Shown: positions 16,917 to 26,960 of the stretch, one piece after another
How the letters are laid out: the number at the start of each line of letters is the position of its first letter
Position numbering within the stretch: position 1 is the stretch's first letter
DNA from: Deltaproteobacteria bacterium
GTDB lineage: Bacteria > Bdellovibrionota > Bdellovibrionia > Bdellovibrionales > Bdellovibrionaceae
Length of the DNA stretch: 47,497 nucleotides
Direction of reading: 5' to 3'
Assembly (NCBI GenBank): GCA_017302835.1
Contig: JAFLCC010000021.1
Coordinates: 1 to 47,497 of the forward strand
Made by a program: the position numbers and the translations under genes
Notes under the pieces: generated by a model
Told to the model about the DNA's origin: nothing
Database searches by the model: none
What the model saw: only the letters and a program-made list of their open reading frames with translations

Positions 16917-16965
16917 AAGGCATCTAACTTTCAAAATCTTCTTGGTTAGATGCCTTATTTTTTTT
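16917..16965 (+). terminator. Intrinsic terminator on the plus strand inside the cyclase 3' end
   Basis: AAGGCATCTAAC (16917-16928) and GTTAGATGCCTT (16945-16956) are perfect 12-bp complements around a 16-base loop, followed by A and eight T residues on the plus strand. No U-run follows on the minus strand. The stem overlaps the last codons and the stop of the minus-strand cyclase gene. It would therefore end plus-strand transcripts running against that gene. Confidence 0.6.
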
Positions 16966-19032
16966 CTCTAAGATCGTTTTCTCTAAAATAGAGGCTCTTA
17001 ACCTTACCATCTCATTTTGGTGACCCAATAATTTAAGTCCTTCCTGCTTTAGTTTTGCCAAAAAATCATTCGTAGTATAGACCACTTCATCTTTTTTATA
17101 GTAATGGCTAATCAGTTCTTCTATTAAATAGAGCGCACTGGCTTGAAACAAAGGTGTCCCCGACTTAATCCATTGTATCACGGTTTCAGTTTCCTTTTTA
17201 GCTAGCTCTTTTTTAAGTTGAGCCAAAACAAGATTGGCTGAAATTCTATTGTTATCTTTCCAATTTATTAAGATGTTTTTGACTTCAGATATTTGTTCAT
17301 GAAAGATAAAATAAACTTCCGACGCATTCGCAACTATCCTTGGATTTGAAGAAAGTAAATAGTTCTGCAACAAAGAGCTCCAAGAATCCGACCACATTTC
17401 TTTGTTAATAAAATGAGGGATTAAATTCAAAATGCCTGATAAAAATAAGTTTTCGGTCTGTTTTCTTTGAATAACTTCAAAATGGTCTGACAATATTTGA
17501 TACAGTCTCTGACATATTAAAGCATCAGGAACCGAAACAGAGATCTTCTTTAAAGATTGTAATAGATAGAAAATGGGCTCCATTTTCTCTGCCTGAAAAT
17601 ATTTATCAATTAGAACTAAAGACTCTAAAATATCATTTTGACTTCTAAAGTAATCTAAATAATTCATTTTATATCTAAAAATTTCTCTATCCTCTTCCCT
17701 TAACACATTGACAAAGTAAGCATCTAAAGACACAAATTCTTTGATTTCAACTACAGGAACTGTTTCTTCAAAACCTTTTAATTGAACCATTTTTCGGTTA
17801 ACACCTTGAAAAAAATTATCCCAATGATGATAGCTCGCCTCTAGAACAACCAAGGAATTTTCAGACTTATCTGAAACACAGCCCAGTAGCCTCACCGACT
17901 CAATTAACGGCACACCGGCAAAAGCAAAACCTGTATTTAGTTTAACAAATTTTAGGTTTCCATTCGAAATCGATGATTTTAACAAAAATCGGTGACCAAA
18001 TTGATCATTCACTTTTTTGTCCAGTTTCTTTGCCCACTCAAATATGGATTTCACCGCAAATAGCGCTTTCAGCTCTGGAACCAAAGGATCACTTTTATGA
18101 CCTTTAAAAATAAAAATAACCTCATCTCCGATAATTTGATAAATTTCACCGTGATAGCGGTTGATGATATCATTTGTTACTTCAAAATATTCATTTAATA
18201 TTGAAACAATATGTTCCTCTTTTTTTTCAAGAAAGATTTGCGTGTAACCATTCAAATCAATGCGCACCACACTCACTTGAAGGCTGGTCAAACTGGGTGT
18301 CTTTTTGCGAATCTCCGACGCCAGGGCCTCACCCACCGTATTTTGTAGCAAATGAATACTTTGCCGACTGTGAAGATTTATTTTGTCCAACATCCTGGTC
18401 GAATCCAACAACGTCTGCGCTTCCTTGCTGGATGTTTTGAGTCTAGCCAACTTCTCTTTATTTCCACTCTGTAATAGTTGTTCTATAATTACAAAATCTT
18501 TTAAAATCAGAAAAATAAGCAAGCCGACAAAAATCGTAATTATAAAAACGTCTTTTATAAATGGTATTAGATTCTCTTTATGTTCCCATTTCAGAAAATG
18601 AATTAAATTGGAACTGTACCCCACAATAAGAATATAGTTATCAATTTTAATAGGTTTTACTGTCCTTAAATCAAACACATGAAATTGATCAAAATGAATG
18701 AAATTATAGGTATCAAGTATTTTACAAGCAGATCTGTTCGTATCTAAATACATCTCTTGAAGAACTTTTTCGCCATCCTTGAAACAATAGTAATCAATAA
18801 ATTTAAGCTTAACAGCATTCTGAAGCTGTTCTCTTAAAAGATCAAAATTTTCAGATAATATAAAGTCCTTGGAGTTATTTAAAATAAAATCAATGTTCTG
18901 ATTTCGTAAATCATCAATTCTCGCCTTAGCCTGAATGGTCGTAAAGGTTGTCTGAACAATACTCAACAACATATACCCAAGCCAAAAAGCGATTAATAGT
19001 ACAACCACAAATGATTTTTTTTTAAGTATCAT
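16924..19032 (-). CDS. Membrane-anchored class III adenylate/guanylate cyclase-like protein
   Basis: The 702-residue protein has an N-terminal TM (about residues 8-28), a periplasmic segment of about 110 residues, and a second TM (about 150-170). Its class III cyclase domain spans about residues 245-420. Both metal-binding Asp positions are present (VVRIDLNGYTQI; YQIIGDEVIFIF), as is the substrate region LKSSISNGNLKF. The usual dimer segment G..VN.AARL reads FAGVPLIESVRLLG, so catalysis is likely but not certain. The C-terminal ~260 residues are helical and HEAT-repeat-like (IVANASEVYFIF, FQASALYLIEELI, MVRLRASILE), perhaps an interaction surface. It is the third gene of an operon and overlaps the preceding gene by 4 bases. 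Confidence 0.8.
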   Translation of the reverse strand: MILKKKSFVVVLLIAFWLGYMLLSIVQTTFTTIQAKARIDDLRNQNIDFILNNSKDFILSENFDLLREQLQNAVKLKFIDYYCFKDGEKVLQEMYLDTNRSACKILDTYNFIHFDQFHVFDLRTVKPIKIDNYILIVGYSSNLIHFLKWEHKENLIPFIKDVFIITIFVGLLIFLILKDFVIIEQLLQSGNKEKLARLKTSSKEAQTLLDSTRMLDKINLHSRQSIHLLQNTVGEALASEIRKKTPSLTSLQVSVVRIDLNGYTQIFLEKKEEHIVSILNEYFEVTNDIINRYHGEIYQIIGDEVIFIFKGHKSDPLVPELKALFAVKSIFEWAKKLDKKVNDQFGHRFLLKSSISNGNLKFVKLNTGFAFAGVPLIESVRLLGCVSDKSENSLVVLEASYHHWDNFFQGVNRKMVQLKGFEETVPVVEIKEFVSLDAYFVNVLREEDREIFRYKMNYLDYFRSQNDILESLVLIDKYFQAEKMEPIFYLLQSLKKISVSVPDALICQRLYQILSDHFEVIQRKQTENLFLSGILNLIPHFINKEMWSDSWSSLLQNYLLSSNPRIVANASEVYFIFHEQISEVKNILINWKDNNRISANLVLAQLKKELAKKETETVIQWIKSGTPLFQASALYLIEELISHYYKKDEVVYTTNDFLAKLKQEGLKLLGHQNEMVRLRASILEKTILEKKNKASNQEDFES

Positions 19033-21179
19033 TTATTCTTACTCGTTCCACGAAGTGGCTTTGAAAATCGAACTCCTTTGTCATCGATTCGAACGATGTA
19101 ACTAGGGCCAACACTGCTGGTATCGCCTGTCTCATCTGAACTATCTGTGTTACTTGTATTTTTTGGTTTAGCTGCCCTGCCAGCAACATCAGAATCACGA
19201 CCCTTAGTCGGATCAAATACGGTATTTCCCGTTCTTCCATCGAAAACTTTTACATTATATTCTTTTAAACGACCGACTAACTCTTTTTGTGCTTTTTCCA
19301 CAATTGGATCAACGTCAGTTCTAGCCCCACCCACGCGATCAGTAAATTTAGATGCCGGTCCTCGTGAGTTTCCACCTGGACTTTGATTTTGAACAAATGT
19401 ATTCTTAATCAAGTAGTCTAATTGGGGAAAGTTTTGACCATAGCGCAAGACGGTCTCAAGATCCTTTACGTTGTCTATCCTAGTAAGAGCATTAACAAAT
19501 TGATTTAATTCTTTTTTGTCTTTTGCAGTTAAAGGCCGTACTTCCGTATTTTTTTGACTTGTCGTTGACGCCGGTCCTAAACCTGAAGCAGCTCCTTTGC
19601 CTATAACTGAGCCTGAACCTACATTGCCACCCAACCGAGTCAGCCCCGCCGAACCCACTTGCAATCCACCAGATCCGGCCCCAGATCCAGCAGCGAAAGT
19701 ACTTTCTGGATTTGTCCCAGGCGGCACCCCACCTGTCTGTTTTCCATTTTGATTATCGATACTCAAGCGGCCAGCTACCTTATTTTTACCATCAAGAATA
19801 TTGACCGCCCGACCGCCATTAACTGCAGTTGAAGCAGCAACGGCATCACCAGATTCACCACCTGCAAGACCTGCCTTCACCCCTCCAGGAGCAATCGAAA
19901 TAGAATCATCTCCCGATGAACCAGCTATTTTATTTGAGGATGATGGAGGTCTTGAATTTCGTTCTTTTTTTCCAAATAATTTGGAAGCAGGAGCTCGCGA
20001 ACCATTATTTTGTGAGCTGTCATTTCCGCTTGTATCGTGATTTTGATTTCCATTTTCTTTGTGTTCTCCAGCAAAAAACTTCTCATCTAGATAATCAATT
20101 GCTTCTTGCGTTCGTTTATAAACACCAGCATTAAACATATCTCCTGCTGAAGCCGCAACTTCGGGGGTAACAATTCCACTATTTTTTTCTAACATTTCAT
20201 CGATTTTGGCTAAAGTTCCTTTGACAAGTATTGGGTCTGACATCTCAGCAGGCTTTGGAATTAGTTTGGGAGTTTGGTTTTCCAATCCGCTAGTATCCGC
20301 ACGTGCCACTTCAGCCCCAGAGTCTTTGTTTGATGCAATCAATGTATCTTTATTTGCATAACGACCATCAGCTCTTCCATTAACACAATTAATATTTTTT
20401 ATAGGTAATACATTTTGAATTTTCATACATAAAAACTGATTCATATTTAATTTACTCTCTTCAAAAAAGTGATTCATCAAACCATCACAATTTTTAAGAT
20501 CATTATCAATAAAATTTATCAGGCTCAAAGAAACTTTATCTGCAATTCTTATCTTTGAACTTTCTGAAATAGCCTTGTTTTCCCGATTTTTGATATCTGC
20601 AAAGCAGCTTTTTCTTAGATAGTCAGAATTTACAAATTTTTTAAGAAAGTTTTTTAGGTATCTTTTTTCTTTATCCTCAAGTTGCCCACAAGAATTGTTA
20701 ATTTTGTTTTCAATTTCAAATTTATCAGTCCACTGTGAAACCAACTGATCAGACAAAATGTACTTTTGAGCAATTTCAAACTTATTCTTCGAGCAACTTT
20801 CTTGATGAGCAACCTGTTCGGTTTCTTCAAAAAATCTATCTGAGTGTATTCCATTTTTGCAATCATCGATTGTTTCACATGAAATGTTTTTTCCGTGATC
20901 CAAATCACAGATTTTATGTGTTTTGTCTTGATAGGATAATTTGTTGATAGAACTAATTTTAGAATTAATGAACTGAACATTATATTTTTTAATTTCGACA
21001 TTTATATCTGCTTCACATTCGTCTCTTTCTTTATCTTCCAAGCAATTCACGCTTATTTCTTTGCCTTCACAAATAAATTTATATTCAATATTGCCTTTTA
21101 ATCCTAGAAAAAGACAATCAGCAAAGCTATAAAAGGAAAATATAATTAATAGGAAAATTAACTTATTAATGTGGTTCAC
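19029..21179 (-). CDS. Large secreted protein with Cys-rich head and Gly/Ser-rich low-complexity middle
   Basis: I do not recognise a family. The 716-residue protein opens with a signal peptide (MNHINKLIFLLIIFSFYSFA) from a GTG start. The first ~270 residues contain about a dozen Cys. Residues about 390-560 are low complexity, rich in Gly, Ser, Ala and Asn (AAGSGAGSGGLQVGSAG). A C-terminal segment with helices (KDKKELNQFVNALTRIDNVKDLETVLRYGQNF) and strands (SYIVRIDDKGVRFSKPLRG) follows. It sits between a trypsin-like protease gene and a membrane cyclase gene. Its stop overlaps the cyclase start (4 bases) and no ribosome site is visible at its own GTG. A surface or envelope-matrix role is plausible but unproven. 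Confidence 0.65.
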   Translation of the reverse strand: MNHINKLIFLLIIFSFYSFADCLFLGLKGNIEYKFICEGKEISVNCLEDKERDECEADINVEIKKYNVQFINSKISSINKLSYQDKTHKICDLDHGKNISCETIDDCKNGIHSDRFFEETEQVAHQESCSKNKFEIAQKYILSDQLVSQWTDKFEIENKINNSCGQLEDKEKRYLKNFLKKFVNSDYLRKSCFADIKNRENKAISESSKIRIADKVSLSLINFIDNDLKNCDGLMNHFFEESKLNMNQFLCMKIQNVLPIKNINCVNGRADGRYANKDTLIASNKDSGAEVARADTSGLENQTPKLIPKPAEMSDPILVKGTLAKIDEMLEKNSGIVTPEVAASAGDMFNAGVYKRTQEAIDYLDEKFFAGEHKENGNQNHDTSGNDSSQNNGSRAPASKLFGKKERNSRPPSSSNKIAGSSGDDSISIAPGGVKAGLAGGESGDAVAASTAVNGGRAVNILDGKNKVAGRLSIDNQNGKQTGGVPPGTNPESTFAAGSGAGSGGLQVGSAGLTRLGGNVGSGSVIGKGAASGLGPASTTSQKNTEVRPLTAKDKKELNQFVNALTRIDNVKDLETVLRYGQNFPQLDYLIKNTFVQNQSPGGNSRGPASKFTDRVGGARTDVDPIVEKAQKELVGRLKEYNVKVFDGRTGNTVFDPTKGRDSDVAGRAAKPKNTSNTDSSDETGDTSSVGPSYIVRIDDKGVRFSKPLRGTSKNK

Positions 21180-21210
21180 ATATAATTAATCGGAGAAAAA
21201 TAAGAAAAAG

Positions 21211-22251
21211 TTAATTGCAATTTTCTGCAATTTTATCTAGACCATAGCCAAGTTCTTTTTTCATTCTTTTATCAAGAATATGAAACAAAGACAGATATCT
21301 AGCAGCCCCGTTTTCAATATTCCCCTCAGAAAATTTCAAATTTGGCATAATATATTTGCCATTAATGTCTTCTGAAAATCCATTACTTACGACAGCAAAT
21401 ACTTCTTCTGGCTTATTATTTAATGAACAAGATCCGCCCGACATACCCGCTGATGAGGCTAAGTTTGTACTTAAACCATATTTCTGGTGATTATCAAAAA
21501 TACGTGCATTCTTTTGTTCCCATAGAAATTCTGCTCCAGAACAATTGCCATATGTTTTATCCACCGCATGTGATGGTGATCCCTGACATGAAATTTTTTC
21601 TCCTATATTTGGGTTTATGGAGGAAAATGATTTAGGATCTCTTACAACAATTTTTTTAAAATTATCATCAGCTTTTTCCAGTTTTAAAATTACCAAATCA
21701 TTATGTCCCTTAAAGGTTCTAACTTGTTTATTCCCATTTAATGTTTTTAACTCAAAATCTTCTTTTTCGTTAGTCATCTTAAAAAACACTTTAGCATTAA
21801 CTGAACCAAGTCCGGAATTTCCACCCCTTTCAAATTTGATTTTACCATTAAATTCATTATAATCTCTGTCATTTACTGACACATCTAAAGATTCAAACAA
21901 AACATGTGCAGAAGTTATAACACAACTCTTTCCAATTTTAAAACCTGATCCAATTCTTAGCTGACCACCATTAGAACTACTAATTACTACATTTCCTACT
22001 GTGTTATATTCAATTTGACCATTTTGGTTTGTTGGGTTAATAGGTTTCATAGCACGGGAAGCCTTCATTTTTTGTATTTCAGGTTTATAATCACTGCTTA
22101 TAGATTCATATCTTGAATCATCGCCAAGTAAACTTTCAACTTCATCTGCAAGTAATATAACTCGCCTAATGGCTTCATTATTATAATCACAAGCTCTTGA
22201 TTGTGTGCTTAAAACTTGTATCAATGTGAGAATGATGATTAAAGTTTTCAT
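21211..22251 (-). CDS. Secreted trypsin-like serine protease
   Basis: The 346-residue protein starts at ATG 22251 after GGGAG, with a signal peptide MKTLIIILTLIQVLSTQSRA. The trypsin fold is identified by IGSGFKIGKSCVITSAHVLF (catalytic His), GHNDLVILKLEKAD (catalytic Asp) and ASSAGMSGGSCSL (catalytic Ser within GMSGG). Several Cys pairs (KISCQGS, GNCSG, GSCSL) suggest disulfides. It is not a lipoprotein, unlike the protease at 14821. It is the first gene of the operon protease, low-complexity secreted protein, cyclase. The preceding 700-bp spacer divides this unit from the plus-strand signalling cassette. Confidence 0.88.
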   Translation of the reverse strand: MKTLIIILTLIQVLSTQSRACDYNNEAIRRVILLADEVESLLGDDSRYESISSDYKPEIQKMKASRAMKPINPTNQNGQIEYNTVGNVVISSSNGGQLRIGSGFKIGKSCVITSAHVLFESLDVSVNDRDYNEFNGKIKFERGGNSGLGSVNAKVFFKMTNEKEDFELKTLNGNKQVRTFKGHNDLVILKLEKADDNFKKIVVRDPKSFSSINPNIGEKISCQGSPSHAVDKTYGNCSGAEFLWEQKNARIFDNHQKYGLSTNLASSAGMSGGSCSLNNKPEEVFAVVSNGFSEDINGKYIMPNLKFSEGNIENGAARYLSLFHILDKRMKKELGYGLDKIAENCN

Positions 22252-23005
22252 TTTGGCTCCCTTTAAGCGTCTTTTGTATTTATATTCATACAATAATAAA
22301 GCCTGTCTCAAATGGATATTAATTTGTTGAAATCTAAAATATTACAATTGGTACATTTTTTGTTAAAAATAGGAACCCATTTTACGCCCACAGAGACCTT
22401 TTTTGTCTGTCTCCCCCTCGAAATTCAATAGTAAAAATTGAAAGTAATTACTAAGTAACAGTCTGTTGTTATGTTACTCATTAACTCATTACTAAGAAAA
22501 CATCTGCAGCCTAACGTCGCCAAACAAAGTACTTATTGAAAAAAGTCGGTCAAATCAAATTATTGTGTTTAAAAATAGCCCATCAAAACAATCAGATGAT
22601 TAAGTCGACTAAAGAAGTCAAGTTTGAACAATCAGAAATATTTGTTCAGTGTCTACGTATTGAAATCAAGAATTGAAAGTATATTTCATGCAACCAAAAA
22701 GGGGGGGTAAAGGATTCCGCAGTAAAAAATTACTTCAATAAAAAATTCGGTAAGACAAATAGCACTTTATTAGTTCTATTCGAAAAAGTTTGTAATGGTA
22801 AGAACAGATTAATCAGCAAAAGTATGAATAAAATACAGGGATGGGGGTTAATATTTTATCGATAACCAAGAACTCATTTGTTTCTTTACTGTTTTTCAGA
22901 AATTGTCTCTTTTTTTTAGAAAATACTGGCTGTTTTTGACTTCTTAATATAGAAAAAGCCACCAAATCCTTTATTACAAGGGTTATTAAACTAAAAGGGG
23001 GAATT
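22252..23005. other. Long intergenic stretch between divergent operons
   Basis: About 750 bp contain no gene I can support. A 26-codon frame begins at about 22594 without a ribosome site. A run of seven G residues lies at about 22701-22707. The last part (about 22900-22990) is T-rich and precedes the strong AGGGGG ribosome site of the 55-residue peptide. The size suggests promoters for both sides, but I could not place them with confidence. Confidence 0.4.
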
Positions 23006-23173
23006 ATGAATAAATCACTTAGTCAAAATGTTGAATCAGTTTCAATTACTGCAGAAAAAAAACGTTTAAGGTTTTCAAAGTATTTTGCAACCTCATCATT
23101 AATTTCATGGATATTAGTATCAATTGTTTTTACTATTTCAGTCTCTGCAAACGCAGCTACAAAAATCAAATAG
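23006..23173 (+). CDS. 55-residue hydrophobic peptide, first gene of signalling cassette
   Basis: ATG 23006 has a strong AGGGGG ribosome site 5 bases upstream and encodes 55 residues to TAG at 23173. Residues 1-26 are polar and basic (MNKSLSQNVESVSITAEKKR then LRFSKY). Residues 27-47 are a hydrophobic helix (FATSSLISWILVSIVFTISVS), followed by ANAATKIK. The ANA-A boundary resembles a signal-peptidase site, so the chain could be cut to release a short ATKIK-type tail, or stay as a single-pass membrane peptide. I find no known family. Its stop is 5 bases before the ATG of the hydrolase gene, so it is very likely in one transcript with that gene, the acyltransferase and the histidine kinase. It may be a peptide signal precursor or a small membrane partner. 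Confidence 0.6.
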   Translation: MNKSLSQNVESVSITAEKKRLRFSKYFATSSLISWILVSIVFTISVSANAATKIK

Positions 23174-23178
23174 ACCCT

Positions 23179-23907
23179 ATGAAGCAAGAACTGCAGTTTT
23201 TTGAAAATATTATATACAATGAAAAATATTTCTCGGCAGAGAAATCAGAGGAAGCAGTTCTAATGCTACATGGATATCCTTCACCAGAAGGAAAAAATGA
23301 ATACATTGCTGAATTTATCTCTTCTTATCTTAAAAAAGATGTTTTTCTAATTCACTACGCAGGGTTAGGAAAAAGTAATTTAAACTTTTCCTTTCCGAAA
23401 TCAATCGAGGATTCTATTAACTACTTTAATTGTTTAAATGAAATTAAAAAATATAAATCCTTTTATTTGATAGGTCACTCTTGGGGGGGGCTCATAGCCT
23501 TAAATATAATTAAGCATGTTAATACTAATAATATTAAGTCAGTTCTTTTGCTTTCACCGTACACTTATTTCCCGAGCGGTTGCGACCTCAATCAACTTAT
23601 TCAACTTGTGTACAATGAGTCTAAAGAATTTTTTAGAGGTTCTTATGCTGAGATGGCGAACCAAGTTCAAGAAATTATTTTACATTATCAACCACAATTG
23701 TTTCTCGATAAACTTAAATCATTTACTGGGGTTATAAACATCATTCAAGCAGCAAATGATATTGAAGTATTGCCTTCAAATACTAAATTGTTTTTTGATT
23801 CACTTTCTAATAGGGCTAGTTATTTTGAAATTAATTGTGACCATGGTTTTAATCAAAATAGAGAAGATTTGCTATTACTTATTCATGATTTATTAGGTAA
23901 ATCATGA
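23179..23907 (+). CDS. Alpha/beta hydrolase
   Basis: I chose ATG 23179 because an upstream start would overlap the 55-residue gene. The 242-residue protein has the oxyanion segment VLMLHGYPSPEG (about residues 26-37), the nucleophile elbow LIGHSWGGLIAL (Ser at about 103), an acid in QAANDIEVLP (about 195) and the catalytic His in NCDHGFNQN (about 223). The layout matches lipase/acyl-hydrolase proteins of the alpha/beta superfamily. There is no signal peptide, so it acts in the cytoplasm. It overlaps the acyltransferase start by 4 bases (ATGA). Its place between a small peptide and an acyltransferase suggests a role in making or breaking an acyl or ester molecule. Confidence 0.85.
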   Translation: MKQELQFFENIIYNEKYFSAEKSEEAVLMLHGYPSPEGKNEYIAEFISSYLKKDVFLIHYAGLGKSNLNFSFPKSIEDSINYFNCLNEIKKYKSFYLIGHSWGGLIALNIIKHVNTNNIKSVLLLSPYTYFPSGCDLNQLIQLVYNESKEFFRGSYAEMANQVQEIILHYQPQLFLDKLKSFTGVINIIQAANDIEVLPSNTKLFFDSLSNRASYFEINCDHGFNQNREDLLLLIHDLLGKS

Positions 23908-24548
23908 ACTTTATTTCTAGATTTTTAATTTTAAGAAAAGTTAAAGTAAATAATGGATTATTCCTTTTTTCAAAAAATGTTACTATTAAACTTCAAAAAG
24001 GGGCTAAATTAATTATAAATAATGGAATTTTTCGTGCTGGTTATTCAATAAGTGATGATTGTTTTTCTTGCTTTGAAAAAACAAATATTTACTTAGATGA
24101 GAATTCCATTTTAGAAATTAATGGTGATTTAAACATAGGACCAGGTACCTCCCTAATTTTAAATAAAAATTCACATATGATCTTTGGTGGTTCAAATATT
24201 ATTGCCCATAATAATACGTTTTTTTGTTTTAGAAAGATTGAATTTGGTAAAAACACATGTACTTCGTGGAATTGTCAGTTCATGGATTCTGATGGTCATG
24301 ATCTTTATTCCGCAAGAAATGGAGGCCATTTTCTAAAACCGCTATATAAGCCTCTAGTTGTCAAAGAAAATGTCGGTTTCCAAATGAATGTAACTATACC
24401 CAGAGGAATTACAATCGGAAAAAATGCATTAATATCTACAGGAGCCATTTTGAGAGAAGATATTCCCGCTGAATCGCTTGTTATAGTAGAGCAAAACTTA
24501 AAAATAAAAAAAGGAATTATGACTCCTTATGGAAAAGAAATTAATTAA
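23904..24548 (+). CDS. Left-handed beta-helix (hexapeptide) acyltransferase
   Basis: The 214-residue protein has repeated strands of the hexapeptide type: VTIKLQKGAKLIINNGIF, NSILEINGDLNIGPGTSLIL and SHMIFGGSNIIAHNN. Then comes CTSWNCQFMDSDGHDLY (about residues 128-144), with the catalytic His typical of surface-polysaccharide O-acyltransferases. The closing stack is FQMNVTIPRGITIGKNALISTGAILREDIP. Members transfer acetyl or similar groups to sugars or other small molecules from acyl-CoA in the cytoplasm. It overlaps both its neighbours: the hydrolase by 4 bases and the kinase by 20 bases. The tight overlap points to joint expression. Confidence 0.85.
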   Translation: MNFISRFLILRKVKVNNGLFLFSKNVTIKLQKGAKLIINNGIFRAGYSISDDCFSCFEKTNIYLDENSILEINGDLNIGPGTSLILNKNSHMIFGGSNIIAHNNTFFCFRKIEFGKNTCTSWNCQFMDSDGHDLYSARNGGHFLKPLYKPLVVKENVGFQMNVTIPRGITIGKNALISTGAILREDIPAESLVIVEQNLKIKKGIMTPYGKEIN

Positions 24549-26385
24549 AACACAAGCCGTAGCAATAGCATTAACTTCAGTGGGTTTAATGTTTTTTGTG
24601 TTAAGTGCGTTTCAATATCAATCAGAAGTATTTTTTAATTTGCTGATTTCAACTCGAATTTTAGTAGTTTTTACTGGGTTTTCGTTGTCGGCTTTATTGT
24701 TTTTTAATAAGATAAATTCAAGTAAAATTGAAACGTATTTCTTTTTATTTTGTTTAATTATGCAGGCATTTCATGGAATTATTGAAGGCTCAAATTCAAT
24801 TTCCTTTTACTCTTTCACTGGTCCATGGCTGATATTAAGTTCCCTATCTTTAAGAGAGACCTTTAAAAGTTGGTTAAAGTTCACATTTCCAACTCAATTA
24901 ACGGGTTTCATTGTTCCTTTGTTTTTTAAAAATCCAAAATATTTTACGTCAATTGGTCATTTTATCGATAATTTTAGCCTTCCCGTTTCAGGTATGCTCG
25001 TAGGACTAGTATTAGCTAAAATTACGTCAGATCGTTTCGAAGCTGTAATTAGTAATGTTGAAACCCAAAAAAAGCTTAATGATCTATTAGCCAAAGATTT
25101 AAATCGAGAAATCGAAATGAGATCAATTATTGAGTCAGAATTAACTTTGGTAAAAAATGAAGTTGAGAAAGCGGCCGGATTAAAGATCATGGCAGAAATA
25201 GCCTCCCAAGTCTCTCATGATATTCGATCGCCACTTTCAGTTCTTAATATGATTATTTCTCAAATTACAAATATTTCAGAAGAAAAACGAATCTTATTAA
25301 GGACCTCTGTTAACAGAATTAATGATATTGCCAACACTTTATTAGAACGCTCTAAAGCGCAAGTAACAAATTATTCGACGAATTCGTCTCAAAATTCAGG
25401 GCGTGCTTCAGGTGCAGATTATAAACTTGAGGTCGAACTGATTCCGCCGTTAATTGAATCGATTGTTTCGGAAAAAAGGGCGCAGTATAGGGATAAAACA
25501 AATATTGAATTTGAGTCAGATCTTAAAGATTCATATGGTGCTTTTGCAAAAATTAATGTTGCAGAAATTAAAAGGGTTTTATCAAATTTAATAATAAACT
25601 CAGTCGAGTCAATTTCAGAGGCCAATGGTAAAGTGGAACTCAACCTTGTTTTAGAAAATACGTGTTTAACAATTATTGTAAAAGATAACGGTAAAGGGAT
25701 GCCGGAAGATATCCTTAATCGTTTGGGTGAATTGGGAGTCACCCATGGTAAAGAAGGTTCACAAAGTGGATCAGGACTAGGTTTATATCATGCAAAACAG
25801 ACTGTAAACAAATGTGGAGGTGAATTTCTTGTAAAAAGTGAATTAGGAAAGGGCACAATAATAATGTTGAGATTTCCGCGGGTTCAGGCTCCTGCCTGGT
25901 TTGTTGAAAGGTTAATTTTGAAACCGAAACAAATCATTATTTCACTTGATGATGATTGTACTATTCATGGTATTTGGAAAGAAAGAATTCAATTTTTAAA
26001 TGTAATTCAACATCAAATTGAATTTCTATCATTTACTTCTGGTTTAGCGTTTAAGACATGGTTTCTTAAGCAAAAAGAACTGAATTCTTTTTTGAGCTTA
26101 AATAATTATTTATTTTTATTTGATTATGAATTGCTTAATCAAAAACAGACTGGTTTAGAAATCATTGAAGAACTAGAAATAGAAGAAAGAAGCATCTTAA
26201 TTACAAGTAGATATGAAGAGAGTTTTATTAGAAGTAAATGCCAGTCTTTAAAGGTTAAGCTGTTGCCAAAAATGATGGCCAGTCTTATCCCTATCGAGCT
26301 TGCAAATGAAAAAGAGTACAGTAAAGTATTTAGCAACAATGAATATGTAAATTTTAAAACCAGACTTGAGTATACACTTCCTTAA
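24529..26385 (+). CDS. Six-TM hybrid sensor histidine kinase with divergent C-terminal receiver
   Basis: The 618-residue protein starts with about six TM helices (residues 7-165) with almost no loops, like the sensors CqsS/LqsS that read small hydrophobic signals. A coiled coil (about 170-220), HisKA with ASQVSHDIRSPLSVL (His at about residue 230), and a GHKL ATPase follow. The ATPase shows N box NLIINSVESI, G1 DNGKGMP and G2 GSGLGLYHAK (to about 455). The C-terminal ~150 residues read as a receiver: IISLDDDCTIHGIW with acidic cluster, LFLFDYELL with the phosphoacceptor Asp, ILITS and LLPKMMASLIPI with the conserved Lys. No partner response regulator lies next to it. It shares the transcript with the peptide, hydrolase and acyltransferase. 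Confidence 0.85.
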   Translation: MEKKLIKTQAVAIALTSVGLMFFVLSAFQYQSEVFFNLLISTRILVVFTGFSLSALLFFNKINSSKIETYFFLFCLIMQAFHGIIEGSNSISFYSFTGPWLILSSLSLRETFKSWLKFTFPTQLTGFIVPLFFKNPKYFTSIGHFIDNFSLPVSGMLVGLVLAKITSDRFEAVISNVETQKKLNDLLAKDLNREIEMRSIIESELTLVKNEVEKAAGLKIMAEIASQVSHDIRSPLSVLNMIISQITNISEEKRILLRTSVNRINDIANTLLERSKAQVTNYSTNSSQNSGRASGADYKLEVELIPPLIESIVSEKRAQYRDKTNIEFESDLKDSYGAFAKINVAEIKRVLSNLIINSVESISEANGKVELNLVLENTCLTIIVKDNGKGMPEDILNRLGELGVTHGKEGSQSGSGLGLYHAKQTVNKCGGEFLVKSELGKGTIIMLRFPRVQAPAWFVERLILKPKQIIISLDDDCTIHGIWKERIQFLNVIQHQIEFLSFTSGLAFKTWFLKQKELNSFLSLNNYLFLFDYELLNQKQTGLEIIEELEIEERSILITSRYEESFIRSKCQSLKVKLLPKMMASLIPIELANEKEYSKVFSNNEYVNFKTRLEYTLP

Positions 26386-26516: not shown

Positions 26517-26960
26517 GTGGAGTTGGTTGTGCATACAAAAAAACTAAGTTTTTTTACCCCAATAAATGTCTTTAAAGTTATGACTGTATTTTCCTTCGTA
26601 GCCACTTCATTTGCTGAGGAGCTTGATAGGAATGCGCTTTCTGAAGCGCAAGGCCTTCTGAAGGATAGAAGTAAAGTTGAAACAGTTCTTAGTGCTGACC
26701 CAAAGGCTAGGAAAGCAGATGACTTTGCAAAGCAAGTTGGAGGATCTGATGAGAATGTTCAGCAAATGTATTCTATTGCAGCGGATATTTTGCCGGTTTT
26801 ATTGGAAATGAATGAGAACAATCAAGAAAAAGCATTAAACTCACTTCAAGAATATAGTAAAAATCCTAAAGAATTTTTGGCTCGTCTTCCAGCTGGCACC
26901 CGTAAAAAAATTGAAAATTTAGCTAGTAAAATAGAATCAGAGAAACCCAGAAAGCCTTAA
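26517..26960 (+). CDS. Small secreted protein, unrecognised
   Basis: The 147-residue frame opens at GTG 26517, and a shorter in-frame start is ATG 26580. Residues 10-33 (SFFTPINVFKVMTVFSFVAT then SFA) look like a signal peptide cut after SFA, leaving EELDRNALSEAQGLL. The mature chain is alpha-helical, with charged repeats (LKDRSKVETVLSADPKARKA; ENNQEKALNSLQEYSKNPKE) and a lysine-rich end. No Cys is left in the mature part. No family is recognised. It lies 130 bases after the histidine kinase and before a likely terminator at 27081, so it could be a separate transcript or the tail of the cassette. Confidence 0.6.
   Translation: MELVVHTKKLSFFTPINVFKVMTVFSFVATSFAEELDRNALSEAQGLLKDRSKVETVLSADPKARKADDFAKQVGGSDENVQQMYSIAADILPVLLEMNENNQEKALNSLQEYSKNPKEFLARLPAGTRKKIENLASKIESEKPRKP

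Follow-up and report, generated by a model that had tools for sequence, protein, structure and literature searches.

The window analyzed here is one entire contig of 47,497 nucleotides (nt) (C21, JAFLCC010000021.1) from the 3.6-Mb genome of a Deltaproteobacteria bacterium (assembly GCA_017302835.1), which is placed in the Bdellovibrionaceae, phylum Bdellovibrionota. It contains four genes on the forward strand (23006–26385), which code for a 55 amino acid membrane peptide, an alpha/beta hydrolase, a hexapeptide acyltransferase (AT) and a hybrid histidine kinase whose sensor has six transmembrane helices (six-TM). They form a cassette which is real and conserved, with seven complete copies in at least four families. 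It combines a two-component system with genes for candidate signal enzymes, and it is probably undescribed: In a limited literature search we found no description of a signal-production system in Bdellovibrionota, nor of this cassette or its kinase family.

Our preferred reading, held tentatively and at a little less than an even chance, is that Bdellovibrionota have in this cassette a self-contained signalling module, which makes or edits its own acyl-modified ligand, the peptide being the likely backbone or partner. The AT would add an acyl group to the ligand (O- or N-acylation), and the esterase-like hydrolase would remove an acyl group from the ligand, or process it. The six-TM kinase would detect the ligand inside the membrane and pass phosphate via its own receiver domain. 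The co-translated membrane peptide, of 43–55 amino acids, would be the likeliest ligand backbone; alternatively, it would be a membrane partner which the sensor cannot do without. We infer the action of the enzymes on a ligand, the modification or export of the peptide, and a regulated target.

Gene order and conservation

The four open reading frames (ORFs) are found where the sequence-only reading had placed them, in a run without gaps or with overlaps. The peptide ORF (23006–23173) is followed after 5 nt by the hydrolase (23179–23907, 242 amino acids), which overlaps the AT (23904–24548, 214 amino acids) by 4 nt; the AT overlaps the kinase (24529–26385, 618 amino acids) by 20 nt. A Shine-Dalgarno-like AAGGGGG (22995–23001) stands ahead of the peptide ATG. 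When ribosome-binding sites (RBS) are compared over the seven cassettes, the hydrolase start, 5 nt past the peptide stop, has no site comparable to this one, which suggests that translation of the hydrolase is coupled to that of the peptide. A scan of Rfam 5' of the peptide found no leader RNA, and promoter and terminator scans gave matches no more frequent than in shuffled sequence.

To find other copies, we have used a profile of the six-TM sensor on 369 genomes of the phylum and a scan of GTDB 220 with an AT profile. The sensor profile has matches in ten of these genomes. The GTDB scan gave six loci apart from the window, in relatives named as Bdellovibrionaceae, Bdellovibrionales, Bacteriovoracaceae and Oligoflexia. 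The whole-genome searches also give five of these, each with the sensor next to the AT; the sixth, L197, is complete. In total, the complete cassettes are those of the window and of loci L143, L179, L180, L181, L182 and L197, although the AT ORF of L180 is in two pieces because of an assembly frameshift. The contig of an eighth copy (L183) ends inside the AT. Conservation of the four-gene order in related genomes was a check named beforehand, and six further complete copies bear it out. The junctions are also similar: The AT and the kinase overlap by 20–35 nt in all seven cassettes, and the spacing between hydrolase and AT is -8 to +3 nt.

A telling case is L197, which retains the peptide, the hydrolase, the AT and the sensor on an unrelated kinase and receiver core. 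It has a separate response regulator, whereas the window cassette has none alongside. In L179 the receiver is missing, and so it is in the kinase ORF of L182, where a short receiver-like ORF follows. As the peptide and the enzymes are kept with the sensor while the core changes, the unit follows the six-TM sensor, as expected if its role is tied to a ligand. The shared role of the four genes, put forward earlier from the window alone, is thus well supported by the order and overlaps in seven copies and by the joint retention of sensor, peptide and enzymes in L197.

The membrane peptide

The peptide of the window has a basic N-terminus, a single hydrophobic helix and a brief polar tail (SANAATKIK). 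The small hydrophobic ORF of 55 residues described from the window is present with its RBS, and it has a positional counterpart in all seven complete cassettes: a hydrophobic ORF of 43–55 amino acids with an ATG start and an RBS, which ends just before the hydrolase start or overlaps it. Using one fixed set of simple criteria, a comparable small hydrophobic ORF with an RBS is found next to 4 of 503 control genes, so that its presence in the cassettes exceeds chance. When each peptide is searched with a profile of the others, five of the seven are recovered, and only 0–3 of 500 segment-preserving shuffles do equally well. A PxxS motif lies within the helix in six of the seven cassettes; the window peptide does not have it. 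There is good evidence that the small membrane peptide is a conserved part of the cassette. Only positional evidence, namely position and layout, places the window peptide in the sequence family of the other peptides. It is a candidate signal precursor or membrane co-factor.

Release of a 3–7 residue pheromone by type I signal peptidase was considered and dropped as a mechanism common to all copies: L181 (VINDVDKGT) and L197 (LRSGTDA) have tails which are unsuited to it. AxA-like sites are found in the peptides of the window, L143, L179 and L182.

The kinase and its sensor

The core of the kinase (25192–25881) matches HATPase_c (E 6e-19) and HisKA (E 0.002) of Pfam, and the paralogue alignment places H230 in a SHDIRSP motif; a match to HATPase_c_5/GHKL (E 0.012) is under the cut-off. 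The receiver domain (REC, 25864–26307) is diverged. The window kinase has no Pfam match to Response_reg (PF00072), and a search of the PDB with this domain gives weak receiver hits only (best E 0.07). Nevertheless, 35 family members (alignment A13), nine of which match Response_reg, show little or no variation at D474/D475, D532, T559 and K581. The term hybrid, used for this kinase from the start, is therefore correct, though not obvious.

The sensor (24529–25062) has short loops. Its AlphaFold2 (AF2) model is a confident bundle of six helices (2–30, 36–58, 67–85, 94–106, 112–133 and 142–214; mean pLDDT 90.8), which confirms the six-TM assignment. Invariant residues in an alignment of nine sensors (A9) include R43, E86 and K134. 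Marginal matches to this sensor (E about 2e-4) are also seen at L185 (2877–4466) and L186 (5945–7114).

The strongest rivals to our reading are an acylated small molecule with a peptide helper and an envelope-acylation module. According to the first, which we consider unlikely, the ligand is an acylated small molecule or lipid, functionally similar to CAI-1 or LAI-1, which the hydrolase and the AT make or turn over, and the peptide is not its backbone but a small membrane subunit which tunes the sensor or the enzymes. The sensor is central to this proposal: A nearly loop-free six-TM domain is the design of CqsS and LqsS (PMC4821796), which are reported to bind lipophilic ligands within the membrane (PMC4821796, PMC3376566). 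Single-span peptides which keep PxxS in the helix, and not in the tail, also agree with a helper role. A second look at the structure gives a match with the six-TM domain of Rv1625c, an anchor which can be replaced by CqsS (Z 7.9, rmsd 3.3 over 129 residues), but this Z value is within the range of common helical arrangements; a Foldseek search of the sensor against the PDB gives nothing at E < 0.4. The cassette has no thiolase-, PLP- (pyridoxal phosphate) or LuxI-like synthase, and the sensors show no sequence relation to CqsS/LqsS. We have compared A9 with an alignment of eight sensors of the CqsS/LqsS type from plasmid records (A12), for which a CqsS sequence served as bait only. The profile comparison gives a probability of 1.6%. 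A single match of 38 columns, in register at the TM2 arginine, scores 19–20 against at most 12.3 for column shuffles, and the PQxYENLxLR segment found 5' of TM2 in A12 is absent from the A9 sensors. By sequence, we have thus rejected membership in the CqsS/LqsS family: The likeness pointed out by the sequence-only reading stands as an architectural analogy of six-TM sensors, but not as homology.

The two enzymes

The hydrolase matches Abhydrolase_1 (PF00561, E 1e-10), and S101, D194 and H222, its triad positions, are invariant across six cassettes. The full triad had been noticed in the window and is in agreement with these results. Among proteins of solved structure, it comes closest to cinnamoyl/feruloyl esterases and S33 hydrolases. 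A scan of genome contigs using the hydrolase alone gave no match. We have found no orthologues of the cassette in the same genus: The hydrolases of sister species (29–32% identity) sit in other contexts, next to a gamma-glutamyltransferase-like gene or other genes.

The AT is a diverged hexapeptide protein, and its repeats are under the Pfam cut-off. Its assignment is borne out by a PDB search with the alignment profile, which finds polysialic acid, galactoside and maltose O-acetyltransferases (E 8.5e-22 to 1e-15), and by the strand repeats of an AF2 model of modest confidence (pLDDT 64), which is too weak for a fold search. This likeness shows membership in the left-handed beta-helix acyltransferase family. 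A SWN...MDxDGH block is kept in nearly all copies.

These relatives also give some weight to the envelope module, in which O-acyl groups of a surface glycan or lipid are put on by the AT and taken off by the esterase, and the kinase and the peptide sense the membrane and control the enzymes. The nearest solved relatives of the AT act on polysialic acid and galactosides, those of the hydrolase are acyl esterases, and more distant AT homologues of the phylum are found in glycosyltransferase/flippase clusters. However, the cassette ATs are the top-scoring group in the 369 genomes (at least 144 bits, compared with at most 90 for the exopolysaccharide homologues), and no cassette copy has an overlapping glycan gene. 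Other kinases of the family pair with enzymes which have no known envelope role (YcaO, radical SAM). We consider this module less likely still than the acylated small molecule.

The AT homologues of the next-scoring group belong to exopolysaccharide clusters or neighbour other members of the kinase family. At L089 (1565–6875) and L118 (2193–6034), the gene directly after a family kinase with a fused MFS-like domain codes for a hexapeptide AT which is related to that of the window and has a (M/I)DYDGH motif; L089 has an alpha/beta hydrolase next as well. At L243 (1553–4444), a similar AT stands ahead of a binding protein and of a membrane protein which is truncated, apparently the start of a sensor.

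The wider kinase family and its swapping site

The receiver domain marks a large kinase family, found in 87 of the 197 relatives searched, with up to 11 members per genome. These kinases are usually the last gene of an overlapping cassette. A Pfam search of 100 upstream partner proteins gave 33 SBP_bac_5, 11 YcaO, 2 radical SAM and 2 GNAT proteins, as well as methyltransferases and other binding proteins.

The window cassette adjoins a conserved gene set (16924–22311) coding for a trypsin-like protein, a 716 amino acid secreted protein and a 702 amino acid protein. The last one (16924–19032, reverse strand) has no Pfam match; by eye, it contains a stretch similar to class III nucleotide cyclases (DLNGYT...NEYF...GDEVIFIF). 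The genus has five other species, and the syntenic site of four of them holds a kinase beside other genes: At L221 these are GNAT and a binding protein, at L222 a binding protein and a YcaO-like protein, at L223 a methyltransferase, and at L225 GNAT and a nitrilase. In G003 (L224), a binding-protein-like ORF alone is seen nearby. The kinase cores at this site are 42–45% identical to that of the window in three species and 36% in L225. The gene 3' of the kinase (26517–26960) is common to the window and L222. Judging from gene positions, the hydrolase and the AT of the window occupy the slot of other modifying enzymes in sister species.

Such variation among sister species at one site is reminiscent of resistance or defence genes. 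It fits a response to foreign molecules, where the kinase senses a compound of prey or competitors which the AT and the hydrolase inactivate. Xenobiotic acetyltransferases (Vat, CatB) are also among the matches of the AT profile, with a lower score. Against this proposal, which we regard as improbable, PADLOC gives no match, the order in which the enzymes and the peptide overlap the kinase is fixed and they do not form a separate regulated unit, and the conserved co-translated peptide is left without a role. As for chance neighbours with unrelated roles, each of the four families is common in bacteria, but the same order and overlaps recur in all seven complete copies, which come from four or more families, and this makes chance hardly credible.

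Several other members of the family are worth describing. The cassette at L038 (7142–12706) codes for a sigma-54-type response regulator, a secreted peptide ending in GGTHPTTICVGASGITK, an SBP_bac_5 protein, a YcaO-like protein and a family kinase with two transmembrane helices. This five-gene cassette recurs at L102, L105, L111, L122, L124, L128, L130, L132–L134, L137, L141, L145, L146, L151, L153–L156 and L162–L164, with a secreted peptide of about 90–160 amino acids. It looks like a set of precursor, modifier, binder and sensor for a signal of the RiPP type (ribosomally synthesized and post-translationally modified peptides). Family kinases without transmembrane helices are found at L104 (268–5214), beside a radical SAM-like protein, and at L159 (2087–6407); the proteins of 148–156 amino acids next to them resemble hotdog thioesterases by eye. 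At L150 (2504–7014), a family kinase with five transmembrane helices has an alpha/beta hydrolase (274 amino acids) and a protein similar to oxidoreductases dependent on flavin adenine dinucleotide (459 amino acids) upstream.

Weight of the evidence

Some of our results weigh against a module which makes or edits its own acyl-modified ligand. The hydrolase relatives of sister species stand without the cassette. The second-tier AT homologues in exopolysaccharide clusters make a polysaccharide substrate possible. The homology of the window peptide to the other six is undetectable with the leave-one-out profile (207 of 500 shuffles score as high), the L197 peptide is not recovered either (128 of 500 shuffles do as well), and the type I signal peptidase site suits some of the peptides only. 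The identities of the sensor correlate with those of the hydrolase (69/5040 permutations) and of the peptide (159/5040), which speaks for the module, but these correlations are weak and are measured over seven taxa. Over the same taxa, one of them with a frameshift-split AT, no distance correlation is found between hydrolase and AT or between AT and peptide. Finally, a related six-TM sensor is found at L184 (3821–5062) on a more distant kinase, without the peptide, the hydrolase or the AT. Nevertheless, the situation which the sequence-only reading had considered adverse, a peptide without counterpart anywhere and a kinase always alone, is not what we find, even though the sensor stands alone at L184.

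A more specific proposal, which is possible but on the doubtful side, is that the cassette is a Gram-negative counterpart of Agr or ComQXP: The peptide would be acylated or trimmed by the AT and the hydrolase and sensed by the six-TM kinase, and the cassette would be one allele of a hypervariable locus, whose sister alleles carry YcaO, GNAT, nitrilase or methyltransferase genes on the same kinase chassis.

In any case, a self-contained module of this kind would be a convenient object of study, as a compact conserved unit of a peptide, two enzymes and a receptor may be transferred to a laboratory host. It also opens up a larger family, with up to 11 kinases per genome, which share one receiver domain and often stand with different enzymes that modify small molecules or peptides.

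Comparison with known systems

As in CqsA/CqsS of Vibrio and LqsA/LqsS of Legionella, the window has a histidine kinase which carries a short-looped six-TM sensor and is encoded with candidate ligand enzymes, and its receiver is fused as in CqsS. In place of the synthase of these systems, the window has a hydrolase, an AT and a peptide. The absence of CqsA/LqsA, already noticed, is in agreement with the Pfam and NCBIfam searches: None of the four cassette proteins is a PLP synthase of this type, the rest of the genome not having been searched. A CqsS-type receptor may also be found next to a different enzyme: In plasmid 2 of Paraburkholderia caribensis (L203, 906–4547), a CqsS-like kinase lies directly 3' of a ketoacyl-ACP synthase III-like gene.

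The polysialic acid, galactoside and maltose O-acetyltransferases are relatives of the cassette AT at the family level, but the cassette ATs form a separate, higher-scoring group, in an overlapping unit without any sugar-metabolism gene.

The Agr (AgrBDCA) and ComQXPA systems of Firmicutes have operons which combine a peptide with the size of a precursor (about 45–55 amino acids), one or more processing-type enzymes and a polytopic sensor kinase. The layout of the window cassette is similar, and a peptide gene of precursor size is found in all seven complete cassettes. No match to the AgrB protease or the ComQ prenyltransferase is found in the four proteins with Pfam and NCBIfam. The core matches HisKA/HATPase_c, with a match below threshold to GHKL, the type (HPK10) of the AgrC core, and there is no separate response regulator alongside.

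Also close are other cassettes of the same family in Bdellovibrionota, with periplasmic solute-binding proteins and YcaO, GNAT, nitrilase, radical SAM or methyltransferase genes. They share the REC and usually the core (48% identity to a paralogue in the same genome), and their enzyme genes overlap the kinase start as in the window, often with a small secreted peptide upstream. The window has a six-TM sensor instead of their binding protein and periplasmic sensor, no periplasmic solute-binding protein being found next to the kinase among its ORFs or with Pfam, and a hydrolase and a hexapeptide AT in place of their enzyme. The cassette, shared by distant relatives, would thus seem to belong to a large set in the phylum whose members make and sense signals and may be swapped for each other. 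If it is true that their enzymes make ligands, they would amount to a set of private signals in a Gram-negative phylum, akin to the specificity groups of agr.

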